64,000 nt of DNA from contig OY727100.1 in assembly GCA_963402885.1 (NCBI GenBank), positions 15,655,395-15,719,394 on the forward strand, given 5' to 3'. Of this stretch, positions 1,951-34,300 are shown one piece after another (within the stretch, counting starts at the first letter, position 1; each line of letters opens with the position of its first letter). The translations under genes were made by a program, and so were the position numbers. The notes under the pieces were generated by a model. That model worked only from the letters and a program-made list of their open reading frames with translations, had not been told where the DNA came from and did not search any database. Origin of the DNA: Antedon bifida. Lineage: Eukaryota; Echinodermata; Crinoidea; Comatulida; Antedonidae.

Positions 1951-2950
1951 GTGCATATATTGTCTTATCTTCATCTTATAGAGTCATAGTAACTAGTTAT
2001 GTCAACAAAAAAATGGCCGAAATTTGTGTATATTTTGGCCATTTTTGAAAAAAAAGCCAAATTTCGTTTACTATATCATAATTTGACATGCGGAGACGCA
2101 CATAATTTGTTCTGCGCATATCACCTAATAATATATACATATTTTAAAAGTGTCGTTATTTCCTGATAAAAAGAACGTTAAAGTATAATATATAATTATA
2201 TTGTTGTTTCAAACGGCGCTGTTGCCAAAATAGATTTAAGTTATTGGAATTAAATCTTCATTTTTAGTCGCGTGGACGCGACTCTGTAGTTCACTATGTC
2301 GGTCGGTCGGTCTGTCGGTCCGGTACCATTATGCGTTTTATCGCTTTTCTGTACTTTTTGAACTGTTTTGATGTACAGAAAAGTACATTACTTTTTGAAA
2401 GTTCATTTTTTTCTGAGAGCACGCGACTTGTGGCTGTTGGCCTTGTTAATTAAAACATTGATTTTGAACGCCAACATTGGACTATTTGAAAGTAAAGTTA
2501 AAGTAAACATACTTAAGTTAAGTTTGTTTTTCCATTTCAAGCAGGGTAAAAGCACACAGTACACCATAATCTTTAAGTTCTCATGAACAGTCCTGTTTCA
2601 TTCCATCGTACTGAAAATTGAAAACAAAATCCAGCTACAGATTATTAAAGAAGAGTCTGCCAGGGTTAGATGAATCAAGTGAAGAATATATAAAAGAAAG
2701 TTTGTTGCAAAATAAGCCTACACACATATTATATTTAGACTCAGTTCATTCACAGAATGCGTTGAACCTATCGTTCTCACGAACATTTTTTATTTTACAT
2801 TGCCTTTATAGAAGTTTAATAAAATTAGAATGCACGTTTAAATACAGAGTTGCTGTGTAGCATCTTTCTCGTTTGTAATGTTCTCTATCAAAATCAGCAA
2901 ACAAGTTTTCATTGTATTGCGTTTTGTATGTGTGTAAAAATACTATGAAG
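1951..2950. other. Gene-free; decayed satellite and a CGGTCGG element
   Basis: Decayed satellite words ('ttttggccattttt') persist to about 2070. At 2264-2345 a segment with 'gtcgcgtggacgcgactc' followed by 'cggtcggtcggtc' matches, in inverted orientation, a segment at about 31440-31560, so it is a dispersed repeat. No gene can be supported here. Confidence 0.6.
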
Positions 2951-2954
2951 TTGA

Positions 2955-3112
2955 ATTATTGGTAGAATTATGTCATACAACCTATAGGCAGGGAAGCATC
3001 GAGGCATCTGTTACACCACAAAGAAGGATTGGAGTTCAGCTAGCTGGAGCTGGAGGTCCATATATTAAGAAACTGCTGCTAGAGAAGCATCTGGACTGTT
3101 TACAGTCACACC
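2955..3112 (-). pseudogene. Relic of CYLD protease exon 19
   Basis: The stretch aligns by eye over ~150 bp with the functional CYLD exon at 6872-7119 in the same orientation. Shared words include 'gcatctggactgtt', 'cgaggcatctgt', 'ttcagctagct' and 'tacaacctata'. On the minus strand the reading VQMLL is followed at once by a stop, and there are small indels, so it cannot encode protein. No flanking CYLD exons were seen. It is a duplicated, decayed exon lying 1.2 kb beyond the 3' end of the intact gene. Confidence 0.8.
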
Positions 3113-4268: not shown

Positions 4269-7200
4269 CTATGGTTGCACTGTAGTACTTCTGTAGAAGC
4301 ACATATATGCATCACATAATAGTCTTCTTAATGGCTCTTCCAACTCTTTGTCACTTAAATGTACATGTTTTTCTGGGTGTTTAATCCAATCTTTGAACTT
4401 CGGAAGCTCTGTTATCTTTGGGATGTTAAAACCATCCTGGTCTCCTGAAAAAATATACAAGATATGTTGCTTGCCATGTGGTAGTCATTACATGTGGTAT
4501 ACATTCTGGCATATGTTTCTACCCCTGAGCATCTAAGCTTAAAACACTACAAGCCTGTAGCCAGGGGGTTCTTGGTGTTCGACCTAACTCCATTTTCCCT
4601 TTTCTTTAAACTGGAGACAAATTTTGCTACCTGTAGGTCAAAACATTCTTTTCTTCAATACCTTCATGGGATTAATTTCCTGATTTATCGTAAAATCAAA
4701 AAGTACTACTGGGTTTGTTCTACTAGCGTTTCTGCTCCCAACTAGTCATCCATTCATAGAAGCATTGATAAAGAAAGCCTATCTAATGGTAACTATTATA
4801 GTGGTTCCAAAACATGACTATTAATATAGAGGGTTATACGATGTTTACTATTTCTATTATAGTTAGTTGCTGTGGTGTTCTTTTATTACGATTTCTAAGA
4901 AGATGTAAAACTATTCATGCTACAAAGAAAGATGAAATCTTACCTATTCTGTCAGCCATACTATCAAAGAACAACCATTTTGAGTCTTTTTCTTCTCCAG
5001 ATTTTACAAAAGCCACATAATGGCTTGTTTCAATACACACAACAGCAAATAGTTCCATCTTCTCAGTGCTTATTGCATCACGCTCCTCATCATCTGAAAG
5101 TTCTTTTGGAAAGTCCTCAGGAATTTTCAATTTTCGAGGCTTGTCATGTGTTTTTCTTTGAGCAATTTTGTGACGCTGTATAGGAGGTAGTGTTAAACTC
5201 TTAATAATAAAATAATATATACATAATATATTTGTTGAATTCATGATGCAAGATTTAACTGTCAAACAAGAATTACATTTTTTTTAATGAATGGGAATAG
5301 AGGGAACTGATGATCAGACGTCTACTAGACCAGGCTATAATTGAGGTAGAAATTCTCATATGGTTTTTCTAGAAAAGTTTTTGACGAGGAATCAGAATAA
5401 TGTGAGGTAAATGGGCTGTAACCCAATGAGGTCTCTATTTTAAAAATGCCAAAGTCAATATCACAAATAAAATCAGTTAAAATAAAAATTTAAATCAGAT
5501 TTACATATAGAATTGCAAGAGGCGTTTAAATGCTATTTGTATATGGTTTTTTTTACACACATTTTCAACTGAGAAAAAAGTTACTCAAACCAGATGAATT
5601 TGATATTTGATTAGTTAAAAGCATTGCTGACATTTTCCACAACAATTCATAGATTTTGCTTACGATTTTGTAACAAGAATCGCAGTAACCCGCTATCTGT
5701 TCACCTCCTAGTTTTGCACTCTTGCATTCACGGCATTCTAATGATGACAGTTTTCCACAAATAGTACATGGCCTGGGAACTAATAACAAATATATATGTG
5801 TCAGCTTTTTGCTTATTGTATCTTCATTTTCAGTAATTTTCCTATGGATTTATATTTATTTATAATTAGTCAAGCATTAAAAAAAAAATGTGTTTATCAG
5901 GCAGTCATTGGTTTTGCAAAGATATAAAAAATATTATTATTGAGTAATATTATACAGATATTGCCTGCTTAGAGGTGAAATATAAGATTTGACATCCCCG
6001 AGGGAATGATATTATGTTCGAGGGAATATATATATCCCGAAGCAGCAGCTGAGGGATATATATAATTCCCCGAGAACATAATATCATCCTGAGGGGATGT
6101 TAAATCTTATATTTTACCGATATAAAAGGCGATATCTGTTATATTACATAGCCAAGAACAAGTCTGCTGGGTTGGGTGAAGCTAGGCTAGACTAGGCCTC
6201 CTTTTTGTATTGTATTTAAACAAGCTGCCTACCTAAGACACCTTACCTTGCGAAGAATAATATACAGTTAATTACTAATTAATGATTCCTTGGCAATAAA
6301 ATATTCACTAGCCTAGGTCGTTTAAATAATAACAGAAGAATTTCCATCAATAAGCCTACATTAATAATAATAATATTATCATAGGCCGAATAAATAATAA
6401 TTCGTCTTCTTCCTTCGAGCCGAATCACCGGATGTTCAGTGCGTCGCGCGCGTACCGGTTACTACTGTGAGTATTAACCAATCACAAATGGTCTTTCATC
6501 ACATCTAGGGAGGACTAATAACAAATGAGGGCGCTATGTATGCATAGTTTAAATAGTTTAGTTGATTAATTTCTTCAAGCAAGTTCCGTGGCACAGCGCA
6601 TGAAGCATTGTCTTGTGATGGAGTGACAATTCCATCGCGAGTTCAAGATCCAGTAGATGACTTTTGTTTAACGCGAGTTTTGCCACACGAAAATTACACA
6701 GTCAATATCATCGAACTCGAGAATTTATATGATTAATGACACGATAATTACGCGAAAATTACTCAGTCAATATCATCGTTCTCGAGGATATATACGATTT
6801 ACGATCCTCGCAGCGGTAGTCATGTGGTGCAACCAATCACGTTCACGTATTTACTATGTAATATAACTTACAGTTGTCCAGCATGTGTGTAATATCAAGT
6901 TCAAGTGTTGGTAGAATTCTCTCGTACAACCTATAAGTCTTGCCAAATCGAGGCATCTGTACCACAAAGCATGATGGGATTTCAGCTAGCTTGATGTCTG
7001 TATCAAGAAACGACTGTTCCAGAAGCATCTGGACTGTTGGCATTTTGCCCAACGTTGTGTCACGCTCCATGAACATCTGGTAGAAGTTCATTTCTTGAAT
7101 GGCTGGTGATCCATAAACCCTAAGAGATACCAAGAATTTGTTTAAAATAGCTTAAATAAAACACTGTTAGAAAGATAGTGCACTCAAAGGTTCACCCTTC

Positions 7201-10200
7201 TAGGGCTACCATTATTGAAGCTTGTTACTGAAGTCTCTTATTTTAGACATTTTTAATCCGGATTACACTACATCAGTTCTTCGTAAATGACACCATCAAC
7301 ATGAAATGTGTGAGTAATTATATTTACCAACAGAAAAGTTAAGCCAAACTGTTCAAGTACAAAATTCAAGTCACAATGTACTCTATCTAATGTTTGATTC
7401 AAACATTTTAATTACCCTCCATTTGGTTTTAATTAATTATCAACGTAATATTAATATAATATCCATATATTCATTCATTCATATTCACATTTATTTTGAC
7501 AAAGAAGATACATAATACTAATTGTTACAATATAAATTGGGAAAGCTCACTGATTTTTTCCCTTTCGCATACAATTGAAAAAGAAAATAAAAAATATAAT
7601 GAGAACAAAGAAGTAAATACGGTACTAGCAAAAAAAAAAAAAAATATTAATAAGTTGACAGTAATAGCAAAAATATTCATAACATACTTGATTTTAAAGA
7701 GTGGATCGCTTTTCAATACTTCTTGTAAAAGCGTTGTAAGAAACTCCTCTGGGTCTTTCTCCTGATCCCTCAGTCCAACAGTACTTCCATGTTTATCCAG
7801 TAGTCTTCGAAGTTGATATATATTTTCAAATTTTACTAAACCATTACTTTGAACAAATCATAATACAAATATATCAATAAACGAACTAGAAATTCAGACA
7901 ATGAATTTTTTATAAAAAAAAGCAGCAGAATAAACAATTTAAGAAGGCTTTCTTAAGTAAATGTTGGGGAATAACCTGTGGCTTGCAGCCTAACTGAGAT
8001 GATGACACATACAATAACTTTCTTATCCCGGCCCCTAAGGGTCCTTTTGTGTCGAGTGCTGCCACTAAAGAAGCCTGTTTGTCTGTCCACAATGACAGGG
8101 GCTGAATGGATAAGCGCACGGGGGTAAACCCTACTCTTCCGAAGGATTCATTTTCATTAAAAATGGTAATTGGACTGGCATGTGAGCAGGCCAGAGTTTG
8201 AGACCTGTCTGTGACATCTGGTTTGTGTCCTTAGGCTAGATGCTTTACTGTCATTGATTCATTGTCCTTTGGATGGAACATTGATCCGTAGGTCTTGTAT
8301 ACATTATTGCAATAAAAAACTTTAGTGAACTAGACTATTCAAAAGCAGTAGGCTATCATCTCCTGGTAATCACAGCATTGTGTCTACCGTGGGCAATAGA
8401 GGGCCTCACCCGATTGTCTTCAGTGTTCAACCATGGACCTATAAATTACAAAATCTAATTTATTGGTCCATGGATCACTATAATACTATATACATTTTGA
8501 ATGACAATATTTATAAAAACTAATAACCATAAGCAGAAACGTCAATTATCATCTAAGGATGATACAATAAAAAGAATAAAATGTTGAATTTGACTTCTCT
8601 CTTATTATATAGAGTTTACCTATCTGTTACTTACATAATGGTTTATTTAATCTTATTTTTCTTTTTGGTTAAAAGCATAAAAGCGTATGTACTGTATACT
8701 TGTACCTCCTCAATGGGTAAACTATGTCCTCTCTAAGCACTCTCTGTACCTCACTGTACCCTTCAATATCATTAGCATTCTTTGGGCGATGCAGTAACTC
8801 ATCAAAAACGCTAACAAATGCAAACATGCTAAAAATAGTTGAATCAAGGTAGCACGAGTTCTGGTCTCCTTGGATACCCATTGCTCCGTGTGGATGAACC
8901 TTTGACATCATGGGTGGAACTGTGACATCCTTTATCGATGGGCTATCAAAAACATTGTCTATAATAATCAAAATAGAAAACAGAAGGGAAGGTTGTTTAG
9001 TTACAAAACAAACATACTAAGAAAATATATAGGGTACATTATTGTAATTGAATTGTAAAGTATACAAAAATGGCTATAAAAATGATGTAGAACAATGTAT
9101 ATGGTAATTACCTAGCCTTTGTGGTTCTCCAGTGTGTTCAATGGGACCGGAAAACCGTGCATCAGGCTTGCATTTTGATAATGGTAAGAAAAAACCCCTG
9201 CGTGGTAAAGTTGTAAAGTAACGTGCAAGACCAAACTTGCCATCCGTTGCAGCCATGCAATCTTCCTCCTAGAGAAATGAACAAATATGCATATAAAAGT
9301 TTACAGCAGTGTGTTCAGTGAACACACAAAAATGAACCAAAAATATATGAAAAGCAATTTGCATTTTTGAGTTGCATTACACAATTAAATAAATAATCTA
9401 ATGCAGTTTACAATCTCAGGAAGTACAGTAGGTATGTTTGTTAATCAAAACATTTTTAACAAAGAAACTTACCAGCTCAACACCAGCAAATTTTCCTTTG
9501 TGTTCCATTTTTTGTACATATCCAATCCATTTAATTACACCATACATGTACATGGACTTTGCAACAGGTACTTCAACCATTGTTCCAATGCTAAACTGAT
9601 GCTGGTAAAACGGTCTACCAACTATGTCTTCACTTCCTGGTTTGTCTTTCTGGTTTGAAATGTTGCCACCTTGGGATGTTGTTTTTTCTGTAAACAAAAC
9701 ATCAATAACAAATGATTAATTGAATTACTGTAAATTACTTACAGTATTTAAAAAAAAGTCTCCCTTCACCCAGCTAGTATACATGGCACAAATATTTTAC
9801 CAATGTAATAATAATATTGTATTCAATGCGTCTGGTCAACCAATTACAATTGTTGTGTGGGTCCAAGCTACAGTAGTATTGCAGGGGGCCCTTTGACCCA
9901 TTACAATTGTGTGGGTCCATTTTTGTATTGTAGTAGGCCTGGTCAACCCATTACAATTGTTGAGTGGGTCTATGTTAGTTTTGTAATGGGCCTGGTCAAC
10001 ACATTACAATTGTTGTGTTGGTCCAGGCTAGTTTGTAGTGTTTTGAGTCTCTTCAGTAAGAGACCTTGTAGTTTTCATTTTCTCTATAAGATCAACTTCA
10101 ATTGTTGGATGCATCATTTCTAGGTCTTGCTAATAATTGTATACTACCTTTTAATAGGTCAGCCAAATCTTTCCTGCCAATATTATCCAGAGTTTCGGTA

Positions 10201-13200
10201 AGCTTAGATTTAAAGTCAGTCTCAGTATCCCTTAATGTCTTCAAGAAATTTGATTTGTCAAAAATTGGCCTAGATGAGCTCGTTATGTTGAAATATGTTT
10301 GCAGTGCATTTACATCAAATTCTTCTAATACTTCTGCAATAATTTCTATCATTTCATCTGAAACAAAACTTTTGTCTTCCGGATCAACCTCCATATTCTC
10401 TTCTTCATCTTCTAAATATAAAACAAATTAAAGCTCTGTCTACACTATCAAACTAGTTTTACAAAAAATGGTTAATGGTTTTTAACTTGTATAGCTCAAA
10501 ATACAAATAGTCTCTATGCGTGATGTGCCCAAATATACATGGCAGTGATATCATCATGTCCATATATGGGCACAGCATATTTTTTTTGTTACATAAACTT
10601 TAATAGTGTAGACATAGCTTAAGGTTAATAATCCATTCAGAATTATTTTATAAAAATATTACTAAAATCTTATATCAACTTAGAGGGTGAACTTGCTGAG
10701 TTTGCCTTCACTCTAGCTAAATGGTAATATTTTAACAGGTTAAATGATGTAACATAGACAACTTAAGCATATAAAAAGCAAAAGTTATATCTCAATAAAT
10801 ACATACTACCATGCAATATTGACTGTCATGACGTGCAAATACAAAATGATATACAAGACACATTTCATCATACACATAAAAAGCATCATCTTTTAGTATT
10901 GTTATGGGAAGACTGATTTGTTCTAGAGATTAGTACACAGTACATACCAACAGTCAAATGTTTGGCCATTTCATCATGACCACAATCTTTCAGAGCCTTT
11001 GCTAGTGTACCAAGTTTATCAGTATGTGAAGGCTGTCGTTTTTCCCAGGTCATGAATGCATGGTGAGCCTGGTTTGACTCATTAGAAGATAATTTCTCAA
11101 TTTCTCTGATTTCATTTTCTGTCATTTTAAGCTTTCTAGCAATATTCTGCCATGATTTGGAAAACTGAACTGAGAGTTGTTCCAGGAGGTTACTGTCAAG
11201 TACTAAAAAATAAAACAATCTAATAATAAAATATTTTTACCGGTTGAATTATGTGTCTATATAAAGCAAAAGTTATGTAATAACATATTAAATTACAAAT
11301 ACCATGCAATATTGACTGCCAAACAAAGAGATGACATGAAATACTGTATGTCTTGTAATAAAAGATAGAAACAGATCTTACATGTTAGTGGCTTTGGATG
11401 AGATATGTTGCTTCCATGGTTCGTTGACTCTGCTGTAAATAAATAATTTTGATTAGTTATTATACATGATAAACATAAGGGAACTAAAACAAGGATAAAC
11501 AGACTCTAGTGCTAAATATAGGCTGGGTGCAATGAATCCCAAAAATCATTTTAGAAAGCTACTGTACGCAAAGTATAGTAAAATTATACATCTCAAAACA
11601 AAGATATTCAGACAATAGACTCATGAAGGACTTTAACATGGATGTCGATAAATGGTAGACAATTGCTGCTGAAAAAGAAGGTTGATATATATGCTATAAT
11701 CATTTAATAACTACTGTAGTGTCTGTTAAAGATGTATTGTCCCTTTGACTAATTCTAAAAAAATTTGTAAACAAATATTTAGAAAAAAAGTGGGTCATTT
11801 TGAAGTATCACAATATAGTTATTAACTTTCACCAAAAATTAATCAAAAAAAAAATCATTTAACTGAATATATTAAATATATATATTAAATTACAAATACA
11901 ATGCAAACAGATGACATGAAATACTGTATGTCTTGTAATAAAAGATAGAAACAGATCTTACGTGTTAGTGGCTTTGGATGAGATATGTTGCTTCCATGGT
12001 TCGTTGACTTTACTGTAAATAAATCATTTTGATTAGTTATTATATACATTATGATAAACATAAGGGAACTAAAACAAGGATAAATAGACTCTTGTGCTAA
12101 ATATAGGCTGGGTGCAATGAATCCCCAAGATCATTTAAGAATTAAAATACATCTAAAAACGAAGATATTCAGACATGTCAATAGACTCATGAAGGACTTT
12201 AACGTGGATGTCGATAAATGGGAGACAATTGCGGCTGAAATAGATGGTTGATATATATGCTATATTCATTTAATAACTACTGTAGCGTCTGTTAAATAAT
12301 TAAGTATTATAAGGCCAAATCTAGACAAGGGAAAGCTTTTCATTTGGTCTTTTTGTCAAATCAAGTTGAATAATCAAGTAATTATTAATTTTCATTTTAC
12401 ATTTTCTTGACAATAAAGAGTAGAATGTAGAGGCAGTTGGCCATGGCAATAGATAAAAGAGCCAACCAAAAGGAAAAACATAAACTGTCAGACCTCTAAA
12501 CATCTACAGTACATCTGACTCCCAAATAAAACCAACATTGGGACTTATTAGCTAAAGATGACATTAAAACATGTGACAAAATGAAAAAAAAAAATTAATC
12601 TTGCTGGATTACATTTTCAGTAAAGTAACACTGCTTTTCAAAATGGACCAGTTAAAAGGTTTAAAGGTAAGTAAAGTAAATCAATTTATCTCCATATAAA
12701 ACAAAACGAAAAATCATTTTGTACAGTACCAGGCATAGCTTTTTAAGGTTTTACTCCTGAGGGGTCCCCGTCTACTTTACTACTAACGTTAATTGTAACT
12801 AAGATAAGATAATGATAATTTAATTTTGGTTAATTAATAAACCAGTAATCAATAAAAGGGGGCTGAACACAGTTCATGCAACAAGTTCACTAGATTTTAA
12901 TGTTTTATTTTAAAAGTTCTACTGAGAAGCAAACATGAAGATGCTATAGGTATGTCTTTAGTTAGAAACATTAAATATTCTTATACTTGTGTCTGGTCTG
13001 TGATCTTGTCTTGTTTGTAATACATTGCTTCCATTGTTTGTAGACACTGTAAATAAATAAATTCCAATAAAATCAGTAAAGAGGATTGAAATACGATAGG
13101 AAACTGAGCAAAGATTTGGTTTATATAATTTAATTTTTTGTAAAATTATAAGTACTGACTGTGTATTTGTGATCTAGAGAGCAATCTTCCATATTACTAA

Positions 13201-16200
13201 TAAAAGATGGTACAGTATGTAATAACTACATCCTATTAATTACTGAAACATGAACAATAACTTCCACTTACTGGGGAAAACCTGTTTTAGAACTGAACCA
13301 AAACCATATCTGCTCAATAAAGTTATTAACTTTTGTTTCTTGTCTTCTGTACGGTCTTGCTGTGCTCTCCATGTAAAAATCATTGCTTTTATTTTAGCAA
13401 GGTCCTTTATGAATTTCTTGTCAAAATACATCATATGTGAAGGTTGGAAATTTAGTGCTTTACGTATATCATACAAGTTTTTTGTCATCCTTATTGCAAG
13501 TTTGTGAATATCTCCATCTTCCAAACCTATAACAAAGTATATAGATTGTGGTTTAATTTTACTGTTTTCAGTAATTTTGAAAATAAATATGTTTTTGTAT
13601 TTTGTGTTCTACTTCATGTATTATCATATGCAATGTTATGATAACTAAATGAATAGTAGTGCAGATTAGAAAATACTTTTATTTTTGTGATTTGATTTTC
13701 TTGTTTTATAATTTGGTAAAAAACAATTGTTGTCCTATTTGTCCAAAATGGTTAATGTATTTTGCATTACCTCTGGACATAATTTACCAACCCAGACATA
13801 GCGAAACTATTTTATATTCCCATTACGATTTTACATATACATACAACTTTCATATAATTGTGGTCCAAAGAACTACGATAAAATCTTATGTCGCCTCCTA
13901 GGTCGAGTTTGTGCGGATGCATATTATTGCCACAAAACAAACCTACATTCGCGCTCGCCTTTGTTTACACAGCTAGTAGAAAGGGAATAGGAGGAAAACC
14001 TTGTTGCATAACACAATCGCACAAGGTCGTCCAGTGGTACAGTCCATCCCCACCAAATATAATAGTGTTGACCATTTTTTGTCAGAGAAATTTGGTTCTC
14101 TTACTCTGATAATTGCAACAGTCTGGTTTGTGTAGCTAATTAATATAAATGTTACGGGCGATTTGAATGATTTGCGCATATATTTGCTCCATTTAAAATG
14201 ACAATCCTGCACAATAAAATGGACTGTACAATTTTCATTGTTTTCTATACACACAAGATTGTTCACATTCGCATTGAACCCAAAAAAATGTTTATCCTTG
14301 GTCGTGTGTGTTTATCCCTTTTCCATGGTTTACCGGCAGAGAAAGTAGGCTATGATCATTTTGCTGATGGTGTGTCATACTCTGGCCATCTAGAGGTGAA
14401 TTTATCATGAATTTTACGTGCCAGGGGCCGGATTTATCAATATTTGCTTATATTTTTGCTTAAGGTGAAATATTTAAGAAGTGCTTAAGCAAATAGCTTA
14501 AGCTTATTTATCAAACCGTCTTAGCAATGTCTTAGCAGAAAAATTGTCTTAGGTAAATTTTACTTTGCACATGCGCAAAATTAAACTCTAGAGGGCAGCA
14601 AATTATGTCTTAAGACGAAAAATCCTTGCTTACGCGTGCGCATTAGCTTTTTTCTCTTAGCGATGGCGGCGCTATAACATTTTATCTCCGTATTTTCACT
14701 CCCAACAAGAGAGGGCGCATTCTGGCTACTATTGTTTTTATTACTTGAAATAGCTAGAGAAAGAGCACAACAGTCGGAAATACATACGAAAATCATTCGC
14801 TCTAAACTTAAATCAAATCAACATTTATTTATTTTTATCAATGACAGCGACCCTTGGCAGTCAATAGTTTTCTAAAAGTTAGTCAAATGGGTCGTACCTA
14901 TCCCGAAAATATTAGTTTTGCTTGTCCAATTTCTAGGCCATCTTTACGAAGATCGATATCATTATTTTAGCGTCCGTAGTACAGCGGAAAACGCACTAGC
15001 TTAGCCTTTCCGAATGTTCAATGTTCCGGCCTAGCGCGCTCGCGTTGTCAAAAAAGAATGTTTCTGTTGCAGAAATGAGATAAGACGAAATTTTTCATCT
15101 TAAGGCAGGGTATTGTTCGTCTTAGATTTAAGACAAAATTAAGCAAATTTTTTTGCTTAGATATATTGATAAATCTGACTTAGGCAAAATCAAGGATTTA
15201 AGGCAAAGTTAAGACGATTTTTTTGCTAAGCAAGTTTGATAAATCCGGCCCCAGAGAGAGTACCATTTCCATCCATCTGGGGATGTCAGGTAACAAAATT
15301 CTATCGGGAAAATCCTGGCGCCACCACTGCTCACGCATTGTTTTTATTCAGAACTATATGATGTACCATAAACTTTATAACAACAATAAAATAACATTGA
15401 CAGGAATTGGTATTTATTTCTTTTTTATAAAAAATACTATAGCAAAATTGTATACATACCACCAATCAAGTGTTTGGCCATTTCCTCATGGCCACAGATT
15501 TTCAGAGCCTTTGCTAGTGTACCAAGCTTATCTGTCTCTGAAGGCTGTTGTTTTTTCCATATCATGAATGCTTGATAGGCCTGTTTTGACACATCAGGAG
15601 ATGACTTCTCGATTTCTATGATTTCTTCCTCTGTCAGTTTAAGCTCTTTAGCAAGAACTTGCCATGATTTTAAAAGTTCAACTGAAAGTTGTTCTAGGAA
15701 GTTAGTGTCGAGTCCTATAAAATAAAAAAAACAAGCCCTGTTTCTGTGTATATAGTACATGGAAATTTTTAATATATACTGTATATGCATATCTCAATAG
15801 TTTTTTGACAATATTATATAACTGAGATTCTTGTCATTTAATTGAATGATTGTGGGTCACATGATATTAAATAAATACTATATCACTGCAATTTCGTTTT
15901 GCATGTTCATTATTTTTGTTACTCAGCGAGTGGCCGTTGACCAATTTTGTTAAAGCAAACTGTAGTGTCACACCATCTATTTGTTCTACCCAGCGTACAA
16001 AATTGGAACGCTGCCTTTTTAAGTGGTTTATTAATAGGAAGTGTCTTATAAAACAAATAAACAGTGAAAGCTGAAAATTTGTAATATTTTCACTCAACCA
16101 GAATTTACCCCTGTACATATGAATTGACAAAGGGTCAAGAACCCCATTTAAGTGCATAATTTCAAAGATGGACCAGGGGATGAAACCCATGAAGTAATTT

Positions 16201-19200
16201 CAGTAGAAATGGGTCTCCAGCTATACCATTTTACCTTGAATCAAAAATGTTGACACAGACCGCAATTCAATTTCATCAAGAGCAGATGCAAGAAATGAAA
16301 CTTTATCTGATGCATGTGATTGGGTTGTTCTCCAAATTATCAGTACTTCTAAGCATATTGCTTCCTGATTACCACCTTTTCTTTTTTTAATCTGTTCAAT
16401 GTTAGACACGTTTAATTTTTCAGCAAGACTTTCCCATCTGTATTTAGTTTCTCGTGCTACAAATCTTAAAATATCATCATCCAAACCTTTAGAATATTTG
16501 ATACAAAAATTCTTGGTAAAACAGGAATACAGTAGCCATAATATAACATATAATTGAACAAAACAAATAAAATTACCACACTTATTTCATTTTGAAAGTA
16601 GCTTCTATTCTATGACCTTTGACCCAGGATATACAAAATTACACAAAAATATGGCAAAATATTTATTTATACACACTATAAATCTATCATTATGAATTAT
16701 GATAATTAGTCACAACAAATGTAGAAAATTAGTAAATTTATTACTTGCTAAACCACTTTTCAACTTCCAAAGCCTACCAAACTCATTAAACTTTCTTCTT
16801 CATGGTACAGAATTGTGATAAAACATAATAAATGTTTACCTTGGAGTATTTCATTACACAGCTTGTCTTCACCAAACTCATTACAAATTTGTGCAAGTAC
16901 TCCAAGCTTGTCTGTCAGATCCAAATTATCTTCTTGCCAAATGTGAAGCATGTACCATGACACCTCTTCATTAGAACAATACTTTTTACTTAATTCATCA
17001 ATTTTCTTTTGCGTTATGTTAAGCTTTTTTCCAATCTCTGACAATCTTGGTGGCATAGCACATGAAATCTTCATCATCAAGACATCTTCTACTCTTGTGG
17101 CTAATCAACAAACAAAGAGCAAATTATATATTTAAAGTGTATAGGTTTTTGGATACCTTAAAAAAAATTATAATAGACAACTTGATGATTTTTAATACCT
17201 GTTTCTTCATTTCGTGCTTTCTTATTTCTTCTACCTGGAGTTTGCCATGAATATTGTGATACATTATCTGAAATTATGAATTAAGTTGAAATAACTTGTA
17301 CAGAATTTTCCTGCATTTACATACTCTTTGCATTAGCCTATGGCTATGAGACCAATACTACTGGCACCTAAATTTCAAACCAAATTGATATGAATCACAC
17401 CGACAATAAAATATATATCAATTAAACGATTTTCCTACATTTAACATTGTTTGAGTGGTACAGTAGGTATGGCAGAGCAAAAATCAAGGTGGAAAAACAT
17501 TTAGATTCGGAATTGAAACTGAAGAGGAAAGAACATAAAGTGTCAATTTAGTCATCTATGTGGTTTCAGAGTATTTCATTTCACTACAAAAACAGAAAAA
17601 GATAAGGTTTTCGGATTTGTGTATTCTATTATTAAAAGATTTAGCAATAGAATTTTATTTTGGGCTACCAAAAAAGAGCATATGTACTTGACTCAAATTG
17701 TCTGTCTCCTGAAAGTACCTGATTTTGACTCGACACACTCTTCTTTTCCTTTAGAGCCACTGCTCTTACTTCCTTTACCCACAACTGCAGTCAATATATT
17801 GTCGAAGAATGAAGATTTGCTAGATTTACCCCCTGAAACAGAGAAATCAAAATTACCTAAGAAAAAAAAAGCATTAAAAGGATCGCCCAATTACTTACTT
17901 ATTTATTCGTAGACTATTGCTATGACAAAAATTTCCTAAATTTTAAACTTTTAAATCAAAATTATCATGGAGTGACCTATCTAAAAAGAAAGAAAAAGAA
18001 AAAAAACCTTTTTTTTCTTTTTAATAATCAATATGGATTTAGAAGAAATACCAATCTTGATTTAGTAATGTAATAGAGTTTTTAGTTTACAGTGGGTGTC
18101 TTCTTTAATATAAGGTGTTTGACATCAGACATCCTCATAGCCAATTTGTGCAATTATTGTATCTGCTTCCATCAAAGGTTACTTATCTGGCCGTCAACAA
18201 TTAACATAAAAAAGGAATCCATAATCAGTTTAATGACTAAATTTCCTAATGTTGAAATGTCTGAACACCTGTAAGGGTAGCATGGGTATACCTATGCTAT
18301 ATCTGTGTGATCACACTTTGTTATTATCATTACTATAGTCCGTGTTTATTTTTCTTAAAACTGTGCTCAATTTTATGTTAATGCATGGCTATTTACTCTT
18401 TACTTCCTATAACTTTTAAAGATTTTTACTTTACACAAATTTGAAAATTCCTACCTTCAAGAGACGGTTTCAGACGATCAACTAGCAAAAGTGCTACTTT
18501 CGGTTCAGGTTTAAAAAACTCCTCACCACCATACCGGCCAGAATAATTGAGATCTTTTACATGATCCAAATCACCCTAGAATAAAGTTTCCCATTTAAAA
18601 CACAAAAATCAGTTGCAATACATTCCTTTAAAAATCGAAGTGTATACTTTATATTTAATTATATGTTATTGTTATTTCCCACTAATTGATTTACCCAGCA
18701 AAATCATTGCAAATATACTGTATTTGTCCTTATTGAATTGTGAGTGAGGGAATAACAACATATTGTAGACAAATTTCACAAATCATTAAAAATGTAAACA
18801 CAACTGATTACATTCAAAATAGAGTATTTCATTATCAATGTAGATTTACAGATGATGAAGATACCAAATAATGAAATGAAACGATTCAGAAACTGAGACA
18901 TTTAGATCATGGATGTTTAGATATAAATTTTCAGAATAAATCTTAATGAAACCAAGAGTGTTGGCTGATTTGGGTATGTGGAAGAGCACATCTTTAGGGA
19001 TTTCAGTAAATTCGGACATTTCTAAGGCAGGGGCAGAAGACGAATGAGAATTTGAACTTTTAATTGCCTGAAAATTGCACCTTTACACTAAAAATCTAGT
19101 TAATGTTACTTTATATTCAAGGCTAAAAACTAAACTAAACTTAAGTATTGGTCAGCATAAATTTTACAAAGCCTTACAATGGTTGGTTGGGGCTTAGATA

Positions 19201-20482
19201 AGAAAATATAACCTGTATATTACACCATTACATCAATGTTAAACTTTAAAAAAATTATATAACAGCCAATGTCAAACTAAAAAGTATAGCGAAACATGCA
19301 AGTACAGCAAAACATGCAAGTTCCCCTTTTTTTTAAATGACACACAGTCTTGCATACAGGTGCAATAAAGTAAACAGTACTACTGTCAGTTTTCTTAAAA
19401 CAATATATTGTAAGGTTATCTCACAAGACGTCTGAACTCGGACAACAAAAGTAGACTTACAAATTCAACGGCAGCTAAAGTTGTGTTTTGATATGAATAC
19501 AGTCCCCTCACCACACCTTCTTTCCCTTTATCACCTGTTCCATTAGTAAAGCAAGTAACCTTTGTTCCAGGTTTGATCGTATCATTAAGATGAGTTTCTA
19601 CACGATTTGGCTGATGGAATATCAATTTGTCAAACGGCAAAAACAATCCACAATCCTCCTCACATTTGAAGTAATATTTATGACGAAAGAATCCATTAGT
19701 TGTACCAAACCTTTTATGTGACTATAAAACACAATGTACAGTAAGTAAACACAAATTGGTGAGGTGGATTGAAGTATATATTATGATATTGAAAAGCAAG
19801 AAATATTTATTTTATTTTAAAACCTTTGATGATGACGAAAAAATTAGCCGGAACTAGTACTAGAGTAGTGCGATATCCAAATCAATCAGCCAAAAAAATT
19901 AGTCTAGATTTTTCATAAAACTTGTGTACATTATGAAAAACACATACTTTGCATTTTACAGTAGGTAATACCTGGCAATGCATTTGCTCATTTTTATTGA
20001 ATCCAGTCAACATCAAATCTACAACAAAACATCTTTAATTTAAAAAAACTTACCAGAAGTTCTAAACCAAATAAAAGACCTTTCTCATCATCAATTTTTT
20101 CTTTAGATCGGATGACAGCATCTGTGTAACACTCTTTATGGTCTATTATGACAGGAACACGAACAGCATCACCAACTTTTGCTTTTTCAGCACTGTGCAG
20201 CTTATACCCATTATTAAAAGCCTCACTTCTTCTCATTAGAGGAATTCCAAGTAAATAATCAACATATACTGCTTTTATTTCTTTAATTGTATGCCCGTCT
20301 CTCAAAAAATCAAAAGAAATTCTCTTTGTATCGACTGTAAACATATACAAATAATGTTTATTGATATTTTCATCTGAACACTTCAAAAGAGTTCCTTTAA
20401 CGATTTTATTTCCTTTGTTTTCGCCATGAGTCACTTCAAAGTCTTCAGTAACTATAAAGTAAGTATTACTAGAGGTGGCCAT
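4269..20482 (-). CDS. CYLD: CYLD-type deubiquitinase with embedded death-domain array
   Basis: Removes K63-linked and linear ubiquitin from NF-kB and cell-death signalling complexes (family knowledge). Coding exons on the minus strand: 20482-20054, 19721-19461, 18575-18455, 17832-17719, 17267-17199, 17100-16840, 16486-16235, 15714-15460, 13526-13272, 13046-12987, 12012-11962, 11432-11382, 11202-10948, 10411-10148, 9687-9473, 9268-9112, 8958-8706, 7846-7688, 7119-6872, 5779-5664, 5175-4944, 4444-4269. All junctions have GT/AG and matching phases, giving 4254 nt (1417 aa plus stop). Order: CAP-Gly 1 (exons 1-2), CAP-Gly 2 (exons 2-3), basic linker, DD1-DD4, Ser/Thr/Asn linkers, DD5, DED-like domain, CAP-Gly 3 (aa ~900-1023), USP domain (aa ~1024-1417). 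Catalytic Cys is near 1059 (QGDQNSCYLDS), His near 1334 (ETSHYVAFVK), Asp near 1353 (WLFFDSMAD). Human CYLD has 956 aa and no death domains. Exon junctions are my reading without transcript data. Confidence 0.93.
5953..6140. mobile_element. Palindromic MITE in CYLD intron
   Basis: Long facing arms: 'gacatccccgagggaatgat' on the left against 'atcatcctgaggggatgtta' on the right, around 'gaagcagcagctgaggg'. A partial relative lies at about 58015-58100 in a NUP93 intron. Confidence 0.7.
6588..6665 (+). mobile_element. tRNA-derived SINE head (probable)
   Basis: Has an A-box-like 'gtggcacagcgcatgaagc' and a B-box-like 'gagttcaagatcc' at tRNA spacing, inside a CYLD intron. It is too degraded at the anticodon region to be a tRNA gene. 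Confidence 0.45.
9835..10055. repeat. 51-53-bp minisatellite, CYLD intron
   Basis: About four units built on 'cattacaattgttgtgtggg' and 'gtattgtaatgggcctggtc'. The same array, longer, sits in the homologous intron of the CYLD paralogue (27905-28235), so it predates the gene duplication. Open frames across it are spurious. Confidence 0.9.
10428..10622. mobile_element. Palindromic MITE family A with TTAA duplication
   Basis: Flanked by TTAA on both sides (10428-10431 and 10619-10622). Ends are 'agctctgtctacactatc' and its inverted partner 'atagtgtagacatagct'. A nearly identical copy sits at the same place in the paralogue (28652-28845), so insertion preceded the duplication. Confidence 0.85.
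11380..12300. repeat. ~580-bp tandem duplication carrying a linker exon
   Basis: The segments starting near 11382 and near 11962 are nearly identical for several hundred bp. Both contain a 51-nt linker exon and the words 'ggctgggtgcaatgaatccc' and 'catgaaggactttaac'. The duplication added one in-frame linker exon to the CYLD transcript. Confidence 0.85.
14422..15253. mobile_element. ~830-bp TIR element in CYLD intron 8
   Basis: Starts 'cagggg-ccggatttatcaa' and ends with the inverted match 'ttgataaatccggccccag'. Both subterminal regions are rich in 'gcttaag' and 'ttaagacaaaa' words in opposite orientation. No transposase frame is present, so it is non-autonomous. Confidence 0.85.
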
Positions 20483-27558: not shown

Positions 27559-27748
27559 TTTGAAATGAGATGGAGCATTACACATCATAGTCGATGTGTG
27601 TGCTCCTTCAGTGTGCTCATATGGGACTGGAAAATCGACCATCAGGCTTGCATCTTGATATTGGTTTAAAAAAAACCCTGCGTGGTAAAGTTGTAAAGTA
27701 ACGTATAAGACCAAACTTGCCATCCGTTGCAGCAGCGCAATCAGTATC
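27559..27748 (-). pseudogene. Damaged CAP-Gly 3 exon of the CYLD paralogue
   Basis: Equivalent to exon 16 of the intact gene (9268-9112): it reads TDGKFGLIRYFTTLPRR and CKPDGRFSSPI, then hits a stop where the intact gene continues EHTGEPQR. The preceding exon (first half of CAP-Gly 3) is absent between here and 28363. Splicing from the DED-like exon at 28363 would enter out of phase and stop within three codons. It is therefore a remnant rather than a working exon. Confidence 0.85.
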
Positions 27749-27904
27749 CTAAAGAAAGTGACGTTTAAAAGTATGATTAAAAAAATGGTACAGAAATATT
27801 TACATAGCGAGTCTTGGCCGGTTGATAACAACACTACATAAACTCTCAAAGAAGCTTAATAAAATATAAATATAAACAAAAATATAAATAATTTTGTGGT
27901 GGGA

Positions 27905-28235
27905 CTGGTCAATGCATTACAATTGTTGTGTGGGTCCATGTTAGTATTGTAATGGGCCTGGTCAACCCATTACAATTGTTGTGTGGGTCCATGTTAGTAT
28001 TGTGGTGGGCCTGTGACCCATTACAATTGTTGTGTGGGTCCATGTTAGTATTGTGGTGGGCCTGTGACCCATTACAATGGTTGTGTGGGTCCATGTTAAT
28101 ATTGTAATGGGCCTGGTTAACGCATTACAATTGTTGTGTGGGTCCATGTTAGTATTGTGGTGGGCCTGTGACCCATTACAAGTGTTGTGTGGGTCTAGGC
28201 TAGTATTGCAGTGGGCCTGGTGAACGCATCACAAT
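27905..28235. repeat. 51-53-bp minisatellite, paralogue intron
   Basis: Six to seven units of 'cattacaattgttgtgtggg' plus 'gtattgtggtgggcct', homologous to the array at 9835-10055. The MDPHNNCNG repeat frames on the minus strand arise only from this repeat. Confidence 0.92.
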
Positions 28236-28362
28236 TTTGAGTATCTTTAGTAAAAGAGACCTTGTAGTTTTCATTTTCTCTTTAAGATCAGATTCAATTG
28301 TTGGATGCATCATTTATAGAGGTAGACTTGGTATGATGCACTTGCTAATAATTGTATAGTAC

Positions 28363-31300
28363 CTTTAAATAGTTCAGCCAAATCTGTCCTGCCAATACTA
28401 TCCAGAGCTTCAGTAAGCCTTGATTTAAAGTCAGTCTCAGTGTTCCTTAATGTCTTCAACAAATTTGATTTGTCAAAGGTTGTATAGGTTTGCCTTGATT
28501 TGCTTTTTATACTCAAATATGCTTCCAGTGCCTTTACATCAAAATCAATCAATCTTTCTGCAATCATGTCTATAAATTCATCTGAAACCAAACTGTTGTC
28601 ATCCACATCAACCTCCATATTCTTTTCTTCATCTTCTAAAGAGAAAACAAATTAAAGCCATGTCTACACTATCAAACTAGTTTGACACACAATGGTTAAT
28701 GCTTTTTAATTTGTATAGCTCAAAATACAAATAGTCTCTTTGCGTGATGTGCCCAAATATACATGGCAGTGATATCATCATGTCCATATATGGGCACAGC
28801 ATATTTTGTTGTTACATAAACTTTAATAGTGTAGACATAGCTTAAAGATATATTGTCCCCCTAAAAAAATATTTTCTTTAATTTTTTTGTTGAATATGTT
28901 ATTTTAATGTCACTTAATAGTTATTCACTCTCACAAAAAATTGGGTCTGAAAAAAATTTATTTACCTGAGAAAAATGTAATTTAAAGCAAAAAATGGTCA
29001 AATTGTCTGGAAGACAATGAGTTTTTGGGTAATTTAACTGTTTATTTTGTCTTTTTATAGGTGAAATAATTTTTTTTCCCCGTTTTTTTTCTTATGGAAG
29101 TGAACAACTTCATTAAAACTGCAAAATAGCCTATTCAAAGTCCGATTTTAAAAATCTTTATTTTTCATGATTTTGGGGGACAATACATCTTTAAGGTTAA
29201 TAATCCACTGAGAATTATTTTATAAAAATATTACTAAAACCTTATATCAACTTAAAGGGTGAACTTGCTGAGTTTGCCTTCCCTCTAGCTAAATGGTAAT
29301 ATTTTAAAGACCCCTTCCCTGCAATTTTGGACGTTTTTTGGAAAATAATACATATATATCACTTTAAAAACATTAAACCATGTCATTCCTTGTCTTAAAT
29401 GTACGTTTTATGGTAAATTATGATAAAAAGTGAGAAACAATGCACTATCTAAGTAGCTCGCGGCGATCAACCTCTCGTGGACGGTCTTAGGCCTAGCCAG
29501 GCTTAGTTTTGTAGGCCTAGCTGGTAAACATCGGTAACGTACGAACATCGTACGCTAGCTATATACCTAGCCTGACGTTGTATAGTTGCTGCATTAATTG
29601 TCTTTCTATTTTTTCCAGACTCCGTTGATACAAATTGGGGAAAACCCGGTATTTTCGCTGAAAAGTTAGGAGTCTTCAATTTGTTTTGGCCTCACGATCG
29701 ATCGAAAAGTGGGCGAATTACAGGTGAAAAACAAAAATATCAATCCGCGCGCAATGCATTTTGGGATTTATAGCGGGCCGCTATAATTATTATAATCGAC
29801 TTATTTTTCACATTTTTAACTAATTAATTAATATAAGTACTGAACTCAGTCTATAATATAAGTGCAATAAATGTGTTTTTACTTGTCTTTGACCTGTAAT
29901 CTCAATCAATCAATCAATCAAAGCAACATTTATTTTCTCCTTTCATATACAAAATTGATTTCAATGAACAATATATATTTAAACAAAATTTCGAAAGAAG
30001 AAGGTACAAGCCCAGAAAGATGAAAAACACGTCTTGTGGAGGGCGTACCTATCTGACACAGACAATAACAATTTGAAAAAAATTAATAATAAATAAATAA
30101 AAAATTGACCGAAGAATAGTTAATATTTGGAAATAATGTGACTTTTAAGTTTAGATAAAAATGATTTACTAGAAACAGAGTTTAAGATGGGGAGTGGCAG
30201 ATTGTTCCAAAAGTACCGCATATATTCTTCTGGAATAATGAAATTCATCATTAAAATCAGTGATAACTAAAATAAGATGAGCACTGAGCACTACATTTAT
30301 GCATTTAGCACTTATATAGTATTCAAAATCATAAACCAAAATATATAGACAATATATATATATATATAGACGAAAATGAAGCATAACATTTTTGGCCTAA
30401 ATTTAAAGCACAGGGCAATATAATTGTATATTTGACATCTAGAGAGCAATCTTCTATATAAAGGTAGTGTAGTATATTATTGTAATAACTACAGTACATC
30501 CTAATTCTCTAAATAATCCCTATTAATAAACTACCGTAAATCAGTAACATAACTTGTCCACTTACTTGAAAAAACCTCTTTTAGAGCCAAATCAAAACCA
30601 TATCTGCTCAATAAAGTTATTAACTTTTGTTTCTTGTCTTCTGCATAAACTTGCTGTGCTCTCCATGCTAAAAGCATTGCTTTTATTTTAGAAAAATGGG
30701 TTATAAATTTCTTATCAAAATACATCATATGTGAAGGTTTGAAATTTAGTGCTGTGCGTACATTCTCTGGGGCTTTTAGTTGAATTGCGAGTTTGTGAAT
30801 ATCCCCATCCTCCAGACCTAATGACAAAACATATATATAAAGTTTAATTTCAATTATTAAAGTTCACAATTTGTGACTTCCATAAATTTGCCTATTGTTT
30901 TGCTGTTTCATATCTTACTGTTATTCATGTATCAATATGACTAATCATGTAGAAAAAAAGAGGTATCATATGCATGCAATAAATAGCAGTAGAGGTACAC
31001 TATTACACAAGGGTCATAGATTTGTACATTCCTCATTTCAACAAATAATTTCTCTAGTATATAGAAAATGTATACGAACCCCCAATCAAGTGTTTGGCTA
31101 GGTCATCATAGCCACAGCTTTTAAGAGCCTTTGCAAATGTACCAAGTTTATCAGTCTCTGAAGGCTGTCGTTTTTTCCAGGTCATAAATGCTTGGTGAGC
31201 CTGTTTGGACTCATTAAGAGATGATTTCTTGATTTCTATGATTTCTTCCTCTGTCAGTTTAAGCTTTCTAGCAATATCCTGCCATGATTTTGAAAGTTCA

Positions 31301-34300
31301 ATTGAGAGTTGTTCTAGGAGGTTAGAGTCAAGTCCTGAAAAGAAAATCTGAATATCAACATCTTTTATTGCAACAAAATGGAATCAAAATCAGTTGTTGC
31401 TGTCACTACCGGTCTCTCACACTTCTGACTCAACAAGGCCATATACATGGCTGCAGTCGCGTGGTCAAATCTGAGTACAGTTAGACCGACTAACCGACCG
31501 ACATAGTAAGCTGTAGAGTCGCGTTTGCACGCGTCTAAAAATAGGTATTTTGGATGATAAAGGAACACCTAATTACATCTACGAAGTAATTTGGGCATAA
31601 CGACTAGAGGTCAGGATTAGGCCTATAGATATTGTATATTATAGTAACAGGTTCTAAGATTAAGAGGGGAAAACAAAGTTTAATAAATAATATTTTACCT
31701 TGAATCAAAAATGTTGACACAGATCTTAATTCAATTTGATCAAGAGCAGAAGCAAGAAATGACACTTTATCTGATGCATGTGATTGGGTTGTTCTCCAAA
31801 TTATCAGTACTTCTAAGCACATTGATTGCAGATCATCACGTTTCCTTTTTTTAATCTGTTCAATGTTAGACACATTTAGTTTTTCAGCAAGACTCTCCCA
31901 TCTGTATTTAGCTTCTTGTGCTACGAATCTTAAAATATCATCATCCAAACCTTTTAGAATAGTTTTTAAAATAAATTATGATAAAAAGAGCACACAAAGA
32001 ATACAGTTCCACAAAGCATACTGACTAGCTTCTGCCAAATTCTGGCAGAAATTAAAGTAGTGAGTGTCACCATTGTACAAAACATTGCAGAAAGTTTGTA
32101 CCTGATCCTCTTTATTTATACTGTACACACAAAACCTTTTTTTTTCATTTAGTCACAACCAATGTAGTGAAGTCATTGGCCTGGTCATTGGTAGATTTAG
32201 TTTTCAGACTTATTTCCTACTTTAAACCTCTACCTTGGAAACTTGGTCTTAGAGTAAAATTAAACTCAAAACTCTCAGGTAGGCCTAAACAAATTTCCAG
32301 GTCTAAAATACTAAAATCAAACTTTCATTCAAATATATATGGATCTAAAAGTTTATGAAAATTTACAAAAATATTACTAAATGAGAAACTAAATGTACAG
32401 TACCTTGGAGTATTTCATTACAGAGCTTGTCTTCGCCAATCTCTTTACAAATTTGTGCAAGTACTCCAAGCTTATCTATCTCATCCAAATGATCTTCTTG
32501 CCAAATGTGAAGCATATGCCATAGTTTCTCCTTACAAGAATAAGTCTTTCTACTTAATTCATCAAGTTTCTTTTGCGGTATTTTAAGTTTTTTTCCAAAC
32601 TCTAACCATCTTAGTGACACAGTACTTGAAATCTTCAACATCAAGTCATCCTCTACCCTTGTGACTAATAAAAAAAAACAATTTTTAGATCAAATAATAT
32701 ATTTAAAATGTTTGTAGGTTTGAGATAATCTTTCTTTGCAATTTTACTATAATTCACCAAATATGATAATATCAATCCGATATTGAGGAGAGCGTGACTC
32801 AAGGTCAAGCGATATAAAGGTCAAGGTAAAACTTCAAAATTGTTCTGATCGAGCTAATCCTTATGATGAATCTGATGTTTTAACTTTATTTGAAACCTGC
32901 TCTACTGCAGGATGCTTACTAGTAGTACACAATTTGATGACATTTTCCATCAAAAGTATTACTGTTGCATGGCCATAGCATAAGCGCTTTGTGGATATGT
33001 GCGCTTTATAAATCTTATTATCTTATCTTATAGAAATCTTGTTTCAAAATTAAAAAATGTTGAATACCTGTTTGTTCCTCATTAAATGTTTTCTTTGTTC
33101 TGCTACTTTTCGAGTAATCTACTTTTTGCCATTGATGTGATACATTATCTGAAATTATAAATTAGCAGACATATAAAAATCTATAAAAGTTCTACTGTAC
33201 TTGCATCTGGATTTTAAATTTGTTAATCCTGGCCAGAGTCATTTAGTCATGCACAATTGAGAACAAATATTGTATATATGCATGGATATATTATGGACAG
33301 AAACATAGAAATACCTTTCAATCATAATCTCCATCAATTAATGTGCTTGTAAACTGTTTGAAAATAGGCTAACTGTAATTACCTGCTTTTGCTTCATCCC
33401 CATATACTTTAGACCTGACGATTTTGCTCCTTTTACCCACTACTGCAGATTTTGTTATATTATCAGGTGATGTGAAGCTAATTACATTTTAAAACATTTT
33501 TGCTAGGCCTAGAACATTTCACCATTTTGTTTTGGCCATGCGTGAACAGTGAACACAAAAGAGGTGTTTTATTAGACTCTTAAATAATATTGTTTGGATC
33601 TCCAAGAGAGAATGTACTAGGTTGACTGTGGCAGTACCTGCTTTTGACTTGACTTCTTCTTCATGTACTTTGGACCGGTTGCTGGGTCCTTTATCTACTA
33701 CAGATTTTGATGATGATAGTAAGTTAACAAAACTGTCAAACATTGAAGGTTTGCTAGATTTATTCCCTGAAAATAGTAAAGAAAACAATTCCCATAGATA
33801 AATAAATATACCGTAAATAGGGCAATGTAAATTATGAAAAACAATTTCCTTTTTCTCTCTCATTTTCAATTGTTCCTGGTTCTGGTTAAATACAATCGTT
33901 CTCACTAGATTTTAATCTTTCCAATAAATTGTTATGGCATGACTTTCTGACTACCTGATATACAAGCGATATCACATCTTACAACAACCTTCATACCATA
34001 GGATACTTTAGTATAGTGAGAGAGTATTTTTTGTTATATAAGAGGTTATTTAATTTGTAGCATATAGGTTTATAGATTTTATTTATTGTTGTCTATCAAA
34101 TAATTAATACAGTACAAAGTTTTAAATATTTACACTTTCTACTGTACTACCTTTTGAGCATTCTACTTTGTGGGTTTATTTTATGAAGAAATGTTGACAT
34201 TTGAACTAGAATTAGAGCATAATGAATGTTGCAAATTTGCTCTGAAAAAAGCGGTGATGCATTCTGAAAATACATTTGAAATCAGTGAAAATGTAGAGAA

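Follow-up and report, generated by a model that had tools for sequence, protein, structure and literature searches.

CYLD is a deubiquitinase that acts in immune and cell-death signalling, and a locus of the crinoid Antedon bifida raises the question of whether such an enzyme can carry its own array of death domains and, if so, what the array would be for. The locus lies in a window of 64,000 nucleotides, the whole stretch of DNA analysed here, in which a sequence-only reading had joined CAP-Gly exons, death-fold exons and an intact CYLD protease into one phase-consistent frame of 22 exons. Assembling the exons manually, guided by homology and splice signals and without a gene finder, we arrived at the same strand, coordinates and exon number: 22 exons on the minus strand (20482..4269) form a single open frame of 1,417 residues, with its stop codon at 4269. 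Each of the 21 introns has a GT donor and an AG acceptor, intron lengths span 98–1933 bases, and every one of exons 4–14 is in phase 1 at both ends. The protein reads CAP-Gly 1, a degenerate CAP-Gly 2, five death domains (a–e), a divergent domain f, CAP-Gly 3 and the USP/B-box protease, so that a CYLD with an internal death-domain array is confirmed within one gene model. In vivo, the frame would be expected to yield a single protein product. Flanking sequence, 20 kb beyond one end of the window and 10 kb beyond the other, contained no CYLD match at E 0.01.

The protease is encoded by exons 17 (8706..8958, with Cys1059), 18 (7688..7846), 19 (6872..7119), 20 (5664..5779, B-box stretch), 21 (4944..5175, with His1334 and Asp1353) and 22 (4269..4444, end of the USP and stop codon). 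Residues 1050–1415 align to human CYLD (2vhf) with E 1.6e-107, B-box stretch included, and the cysteines of that stretch (exons 20–21) align with those of 2vhf. The catalytic residues Cys1059, His1334 and Asp1353, which we take to be the Cys-His-Asp triad of the CYLD USP, are all present. Many of the 120 matches listed in the USP search carry the name CYLD, and in a USP tree of 36 rows confined to animal CYLDs, nine echinoderm USPs formed one group apart from the 27 others (support 98/95). The USP, B-box stretch and Cys-His-Asp residues, with CAP-Gly domains upstream, are common to the CYLDs of vertebrates, arthropods, molluscs, hemichordates and amphioxus.

The CAP-Gly domains are each split by an intron. 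Exon 1 (20054..20482) holds the start codon, the N-terminal part and the first half of CAP-Gly 1; exon 2 (19461..19721) completes it and begins CAP-Gly 2 (CAP_GLY 22.5 bits, cut-off 26.5); exon 3 (18455..18575; phase 0 in, phase 1 out) supplies the remaining half of CAP-Gly 2, which is degenerate; and exons 15 (9473..9687) and 16 (9112..9268) share CAP-Gly 3. The CAP-Gly profile matched CAP-Gly 1 (residues 100–176) and CAP-Gly 3 only, CAP-Gly 2 being placed by position and intron phase. None of the 15 matches listed in a CAP_GLY search of the genome fell in the window, so such a search misses the split domains of this gene. One exon of the first pass (19067..18865), for which the donor tried gave the wrong phase, was dropped because exons 2 and 3 join directly in phase 0 and already complete CAP-Gly 2.

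Between CAP-Gly 2 and 3, linker exons 4 (17719..17832) and 5 (17199..17267) precede death domains a (exon 6, 16840..17100), b (exon 7, 16235..16486), c (exon 8, 15460..15714) and d (exon 9, 13272..13526). Three short linker exons follow (exon 10, 12987..13046; exon 11, 11962..12012; exon 12, 11382..11432, near-identical to exon 11), then domain e (exon 13, 10948..11202), a crinoid duplicate of domain c, and domain f (exon 14, 10148..10411). Against Pfam Death (PF00531), the joined protein scored a pooled 112.2 bits (E 1.3e-32), with two stretches passing E 0.01 by themselves. Taken singly, exons 8 and 13 reached 49.4 and 50.9 bits, exons 6 and 7 lay just below the cut-off of 22.6 (21.1 and 21.4 bits), and exon 9 gave no Pfam Death match, domain d being detected by own-family profiles only. 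Leave-one-out profiles of the window domains a–e recovered each of them at 21.0–94.3 bits, against at most 7.9 in 200 shuffles. When the profile was built from 49 non-crinoid echinoderm domains, a–e scored 38.1–78.6 bits, compared with a maximum of 5.8 in 100 shuffles, a control that is partly circular, since the 49 domains came from a search seeded with the window domains; E-values from earlier iterative profiles are also partly circular because recovered domains were fed back into the profile. At the level of single exons, the death fold is thus recovered by Pfam for c and e and by the family profiles, clear of shuffles, for all of a–e, with d and f strongly divergent.

A further profile of 14 domains, hand-picked from 47 (window domains b, c and e in; a, d and f out), matched 43 solved chains at E 0.01, and all 43 are death-domain proteins by name. 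The best matches, and hence the nearest solved relatives of this profile, were THOC1, RIPK1, PIDD and FADD, the last three scoring near THOC1; ankyrin death domains matched too, and MyD88 came far lower. To our knowledge, these four death domains sit on other proteins, none of them a deubiquitinase, and THOC1 is not a death-signalling protein. That the profile resembles the death domains of RIPK1 or FADD is a likeness and does not show binding.

For domain f, which had been called DED-like alongside five death domains, the label is reasonable: the five stand, but the sixth is better described as a divergent domain, probably of the death fold. No Pfam DED match was obtained for exon 14 at E 10, in a search whose HMMER filters drop most weak matches, and the only Pfam match was a weak one to bDLD3 (13.7 bits, E 0.064). 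Exon 14 was not separated by the leave-one-out profiles of a–e (7.6 bits versus 6.4 in shuffles) and scored 11.2 bits with the 49-domain profile, versus at most 5.8 in 100 shuffles. A profile of domain f found no death fold among solved structures; the alignment adopted for f includes two echinoid rows chosen for their placement beside it in the tree. With separation by sequence this weak, the call draws mainly on a predicted five-helix structure (pLDDT 81) and its best fold matches, the tandem DEDs of caspase-8, cFLIP and viral FLIP, led by the caspase-8 DED (Foldseek probability 0.90, but E 0.95). Domain f differs from those domains in its lack of a Pfam DED match, and we know of no CAP-Gly or USP domain in caspase-8, cFLIP or viral FLIP.

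The architecture extends well beyond Antedon. All 11 echinoderm-named CYLD relatives among the matches listed, which cover all five classes, have death domains upstream of CAP-Gly 3 or of the USP, whereas none of the five hemichordate and amphioxus CYLDs examined has any, compared with the five and one divergent between CAP-Gly 2 and 3 in Antedon. The order death domains, CAP-Gly, USP holds in 10 of the 11 listed, and CAP-Gly also precedes the array in seven of them (asteroids, ophiuroid, echinoid and holothuroid); none was seen before the array in P0001, P0002, P0007 and P0123, and the A. mediterranea record begins within CAP-Gly 2. Judging from these protein records, the design is not a species oddity and is common to all five echinoderm classes among the relatives listed. 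The matches listed in the open-access literature included no description of it, in keeping with the novelty supposed in the sequence-only reading.

Death domains number 3–5 per record in asteroids and 8 in the ophiuroid. Array positions 1–4, assigned by linear order with the ophiuroid shifted by one and the holothuroid placed by a neighbouring motif, agree between classes for 42 of the 72 best matches (2000 label shuffles: mean 18.9, maximum 40), holothuroid domain 1, crinoid domains e and f and the last domains being left out. For the crinoid alone, positional agreement is weak (13/30), and a tree of single domains groups crinoid domain d with asteroid domain-2 rows, contrary to position; that tree is poorly resolved, good support being limited to 15 of its 53 inner branches, and its coral and clam rows and four holothuroid rows are long. 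We propose that phase-1 exons, each with one death domain, would have entered a previously ordinary CYLD gene in the lineage ancestral to living echinoderms, settling between CAP-Gly 2 and 3, and that the array was probably reshuffled in part later, within each class.

Single death domains between two CAP-Gly domains, with no array, occur in the CYLDs of two corals, Acropora digitifera (P0146; Pfam Death 43.7 bits) and Montipora foliosa (P0203), and of the clam Solemya velum (P0048; 15.8 bits, below the Pfam cut-off, but a clear match at 28.9 bits by family profile). Since same-phylum relatives lack one, the coral and clam domain may be a separate gain or, in the corals, an isoform difference.

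The same window also holds an upstream tandem copy of the death-domain CYLD, which goes beyond the first reading of this DNA. This copy B (27620..36226, minus strand) comprises the exons for CAP-Gly 1–2, one or more linker exons, death domains a–d, domain f and, after these, only a piece resembling CAP-Gly 3b; neither domain e nor CAP-Gly 3a nor a USP was detected within it, leaving it without a detectable protease.

What would the array do in the complete enzyme? Human CYLD cleaves ubiquitin linked through Lys63 or Met1, a chain specificity that the Antedon enzyme may share. In human CYLD, TRAF2 is recruited by the region between CAP-Gly 2 and 3. The 1,417-residue protein lacks the TRAF-binding motif P.Q.[TS]; in 14 other CYLDs, P.Q.[TSED] gave either no hit or hits outside the linker, with none in the three vertebrate sequences, so the scan is uninformative. 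According to two papers (PMC8511506, PMC10320722), vertebrate CYLD works on ubiquitin in immune receptor signalling and is recruited through adaptors and partners, SPATA2 linking it to LUBAC and NEMO being bound by CAP-Gly 3. With an array of death domains built in, the echinoderm enzyme may attach to cell-death complexes directly, which the sequence-only reading took to be MyD88, FADD or RIPK-like assemblies, and docking of the deubiquitinase onto death-domain assemblies is the most likely role that its domain content suggests. The array would bind the death domains found in RIPK1-, FADD- or PIDD-like signalling platforms and thereby place the protease, as a brake, on the ubiquitin chains built there. 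Taken as a whole, an array added in the common ancestor of echinoderms that docks CYLD onto such platforms as a brake is the account towards which we lean, at somewhat better than even confidence.

An improbable competitor holds that the array serves self-assembly of the enzyme into an oligomer, or the capping of growing death-domain helices, in place of docking. Tandem DEDs of caspase-8 and FLIP stack, the caspase-8 DED is the best fold match of domain f, and domains 1–4 of a structural model of the A. mediterranea protein follow one another nearly without linkers (helices 94–173, 178–257, 262–342 and 347–426). However, that model has a pTM of 0.40, so its domain placement is untrustworthy, and the variable domain number in asteroids and the ophiuroid is easily accommodated by a binding array and harder to reconcile with a precise cap. 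Somewhat less probable again is death-fold scaffolding outside death or immune signalling, for instance as a spacer between CAP-Gly 2 and 3 or for an unrelated partner; THOC1 as best solved relative, the ankyrin matches and the divergence of d and f speak for it, whereas the near-equal scores of RIPK1, PIDD and FADD and the immune-receptor role of vertebrate CYLD described in the same two papers speak against it. That a death-domain gene was merged with a CYLD gene by our model, hand-chosen from genomic sequence in a genome with many death-domain exons (150 candidates were scored), is very improbable given CAP-Gly exons on both sides of the array, one phase throughout, introns of 98–1933 bases, and the same domain order annotated in other echinoderm classes.

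The docking account also has a bolder extension, which we consider unlikely: in echinoderms the ubiquitin brake on death-domain signalling would be wired covalently, CYLD itself being a death-domain scaffold that enters such assemblies, with copy B competing at the same sites and so releasing the brake. Docking by death domains would then have arisen repeatedly, or be ancient and widely lost, since the same slot is filled in corals and the clam.

If docking through the array is true, a whole phylum would possess a CYLD that carries its own death-domain array, as opposed to the adaptor-based recruitment of vertebrates, and the fusion would predate the split of crinoids from the other living echinoderms. 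Direct recruitment to death-domain platforms would become testable with purified parts, and echinoderms would offer a blueprint from nature for directing a deubiquitinase to them.

Guided by homology and splice signals, we manually assembled a 22-exon chain for the CYLD gene that carries the death-domain array (copy A). It lies on the minus strand, with its start codon at 20482 and its stop at 4269. All 21 introns (98 to 1933 bases) have AG-GT boundaries, and the chain gives a single frame of 1,417 residues. Within each CAP-Gly domain the halves meet in phase 0; this junction allowed CAP-Gly 2 to be recognised, its degenerate sequence being unmatched by the CAP-Gly profile. Eleven consecutive exons (4 to 14) are in phase 1 at both ends, with one such exon for each death-fold domain (death domains a-e and the divergent domain f, of probable death fold). 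Duplication or insertion of exons of this kind leaves the frame intact. Two linker exons on the minus strand (11382-11432 and 11962-12012) form a near-identical 51-base pair, a duplicated micro-exon.

Upstream lies a tandem copy (copy B; minus strand, 36226 to about 27620), whose exons encode CAP-Gly 1-2, one or more linkers, and domains a-d and f. Domain e and the first half of CAP-Gly 3 were not detected in it, and no credible match to the protease (USP) domain was found in the 7 kb searched before copy A. No stops occur in the nine exons compared with copy A; dN/dS between the copies was 0.171/0.360 over 724 codons (NG86), and, taken by domain, the ratio was lowest in domain b (0.25) and highest in domain f (0.96), domain a having 0.73. 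Two donor sites, after CAP-Gly 2 and after domain c, look weak when judged by eye. Copy B may be an adaptor-like gene in shortened form, or it may be decaying. Elsewhere in the window, a stretch with an internal stop (2948-3064, minus strand; 51% identical, E 3.4e-5) is a probable decayed fragment of a CYLD USP exon.

Two protein searches, one using the USP region and the other a starfish array plus USP as query, gave the best 120 of 1,328 and the best 120 of 983 matches, surveying other phyla in part; all five echinoderm classes were represented among the matches listed. The best relative was the Antedon mediterranea protein (USP identity 91% in the USP-region search; 75.0% identity to the window protein over 1,183 columns), which makes a crinoid the most likely source of the window. 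Death domains were detected at E 0.01 in 14 of 212 retrieved proteins, namely 11 echinoderm-named proteins, two from corals and one from the clam Solemya; they were found in none of five hemichordate and amphioxus CYLD relatives, and no echinoderm-named CYLD among the matches listed was without them. By profile, the window protein has five plus f, Amphiura eight, the Patiria records 3, 4, 5 and 5, and A. mediterranea, Acanthaster, Asterias, Lytechinus, Diadema (a partial record) and Holothuria five each. Among the matches listed, ten of the 11 echinoderm-named proteins have CAP-Gly and USP after the array, the exception being Patiria protein P0002, without CAP-Gly after the array; CAP-Gly also precedes the array in 7/11 by profile. 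The relatives are deposited in public databases, many labelled uncharacterised or CYLD-like, and we found no description of CYLD with death domains among the open-access papers listed in our literature searches.

Several records have features of their own. Patiria has four records of the family among the matches listed, all on a contig of equal length; in P0002 (P. miniata) three death domains precede a complete USP domain and a second, partial one. Lytechinus variegatus P0122 has four CAP-Gly domains, not three. Stylophora pistillata P0211 combines kinase, CAP-Gly and USP in a single record, and since its catalytic Cys is replaced by Ser (SSYLD), the protease is, from sequence, perhaps inactive.

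In the USP tree, nine echinoderm domains formed one group separate from 27 others (support 98/95), while coral and clam sequences fell inside their own phyla, beside relatives without a death domain. This grouping suggests one gain of the array before crinoids split from the remaining echinoderms, with separate gains, or many losses, in other lineages. Coral pairs with and without a death domain may differ by isoform rather than by gene. Domain position matched across classes in 42/72 cases, above shuffled labels (2,000 shuffles; mean 18.9, maximum 40); matching was strong among the four non-crinoid classes (29/42) and weak for the crinoid (13/30). The domain tree united domain 1 across crinoids, asteroids, ophiuroid and echinoids (90/83, not starred), made e a crinoid copy of c (99/99), paired f with echinoid domain 4 (98/84, long branch) and, contrary to position, placed crinoid d among asteroid domain-2 rows.

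The 315.6 Mb genome is rich in death domains: 150 of 241 candidates were scored and every one exceeded the cut-off, a lower bound, with many candidates on contigs C7 and C10. The window also holds a satellite array (1-1891; 185-base period, about 10 copies, 93% matches) and, at a Nup93/Nic96 gene, a 97-base repeat (58731-59395, plus strand; 6.9 copies). The repeat unit takes in the last part of a coding stretch together with a GTAAGT-type donor, so this may be a tandem repetition of an exon end.

A profile built from 14 chosen domains (including b, c and e of the window) retrieved 43 solved chains at E 0.01, all 43 death-domain proteins by name: THOC1 was best (1.8e-14), and RIPK1 (2.9e-13), PIDD (9.9e-13), FADD (3.5e-10) and MyD88 (2.4e-4) were also matched. 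According to PMC8511506 and PMC10320722, SPATA2 brings vertebrate CYLD to LUBAC, and ubiquitin is bound by CAP-Gly 2 and CAP-Gly 3, which are separated by a linker with a phosphorylated patch. In the window CYLD this linker carries the death-domain array. The main rival explanation is that the array serves self-assembly or capping. On the docking reading, the array would bind death-domain platforms, and such binding would place the USP protease on their ubiquitin chains; we infer that the array docks the protease there.
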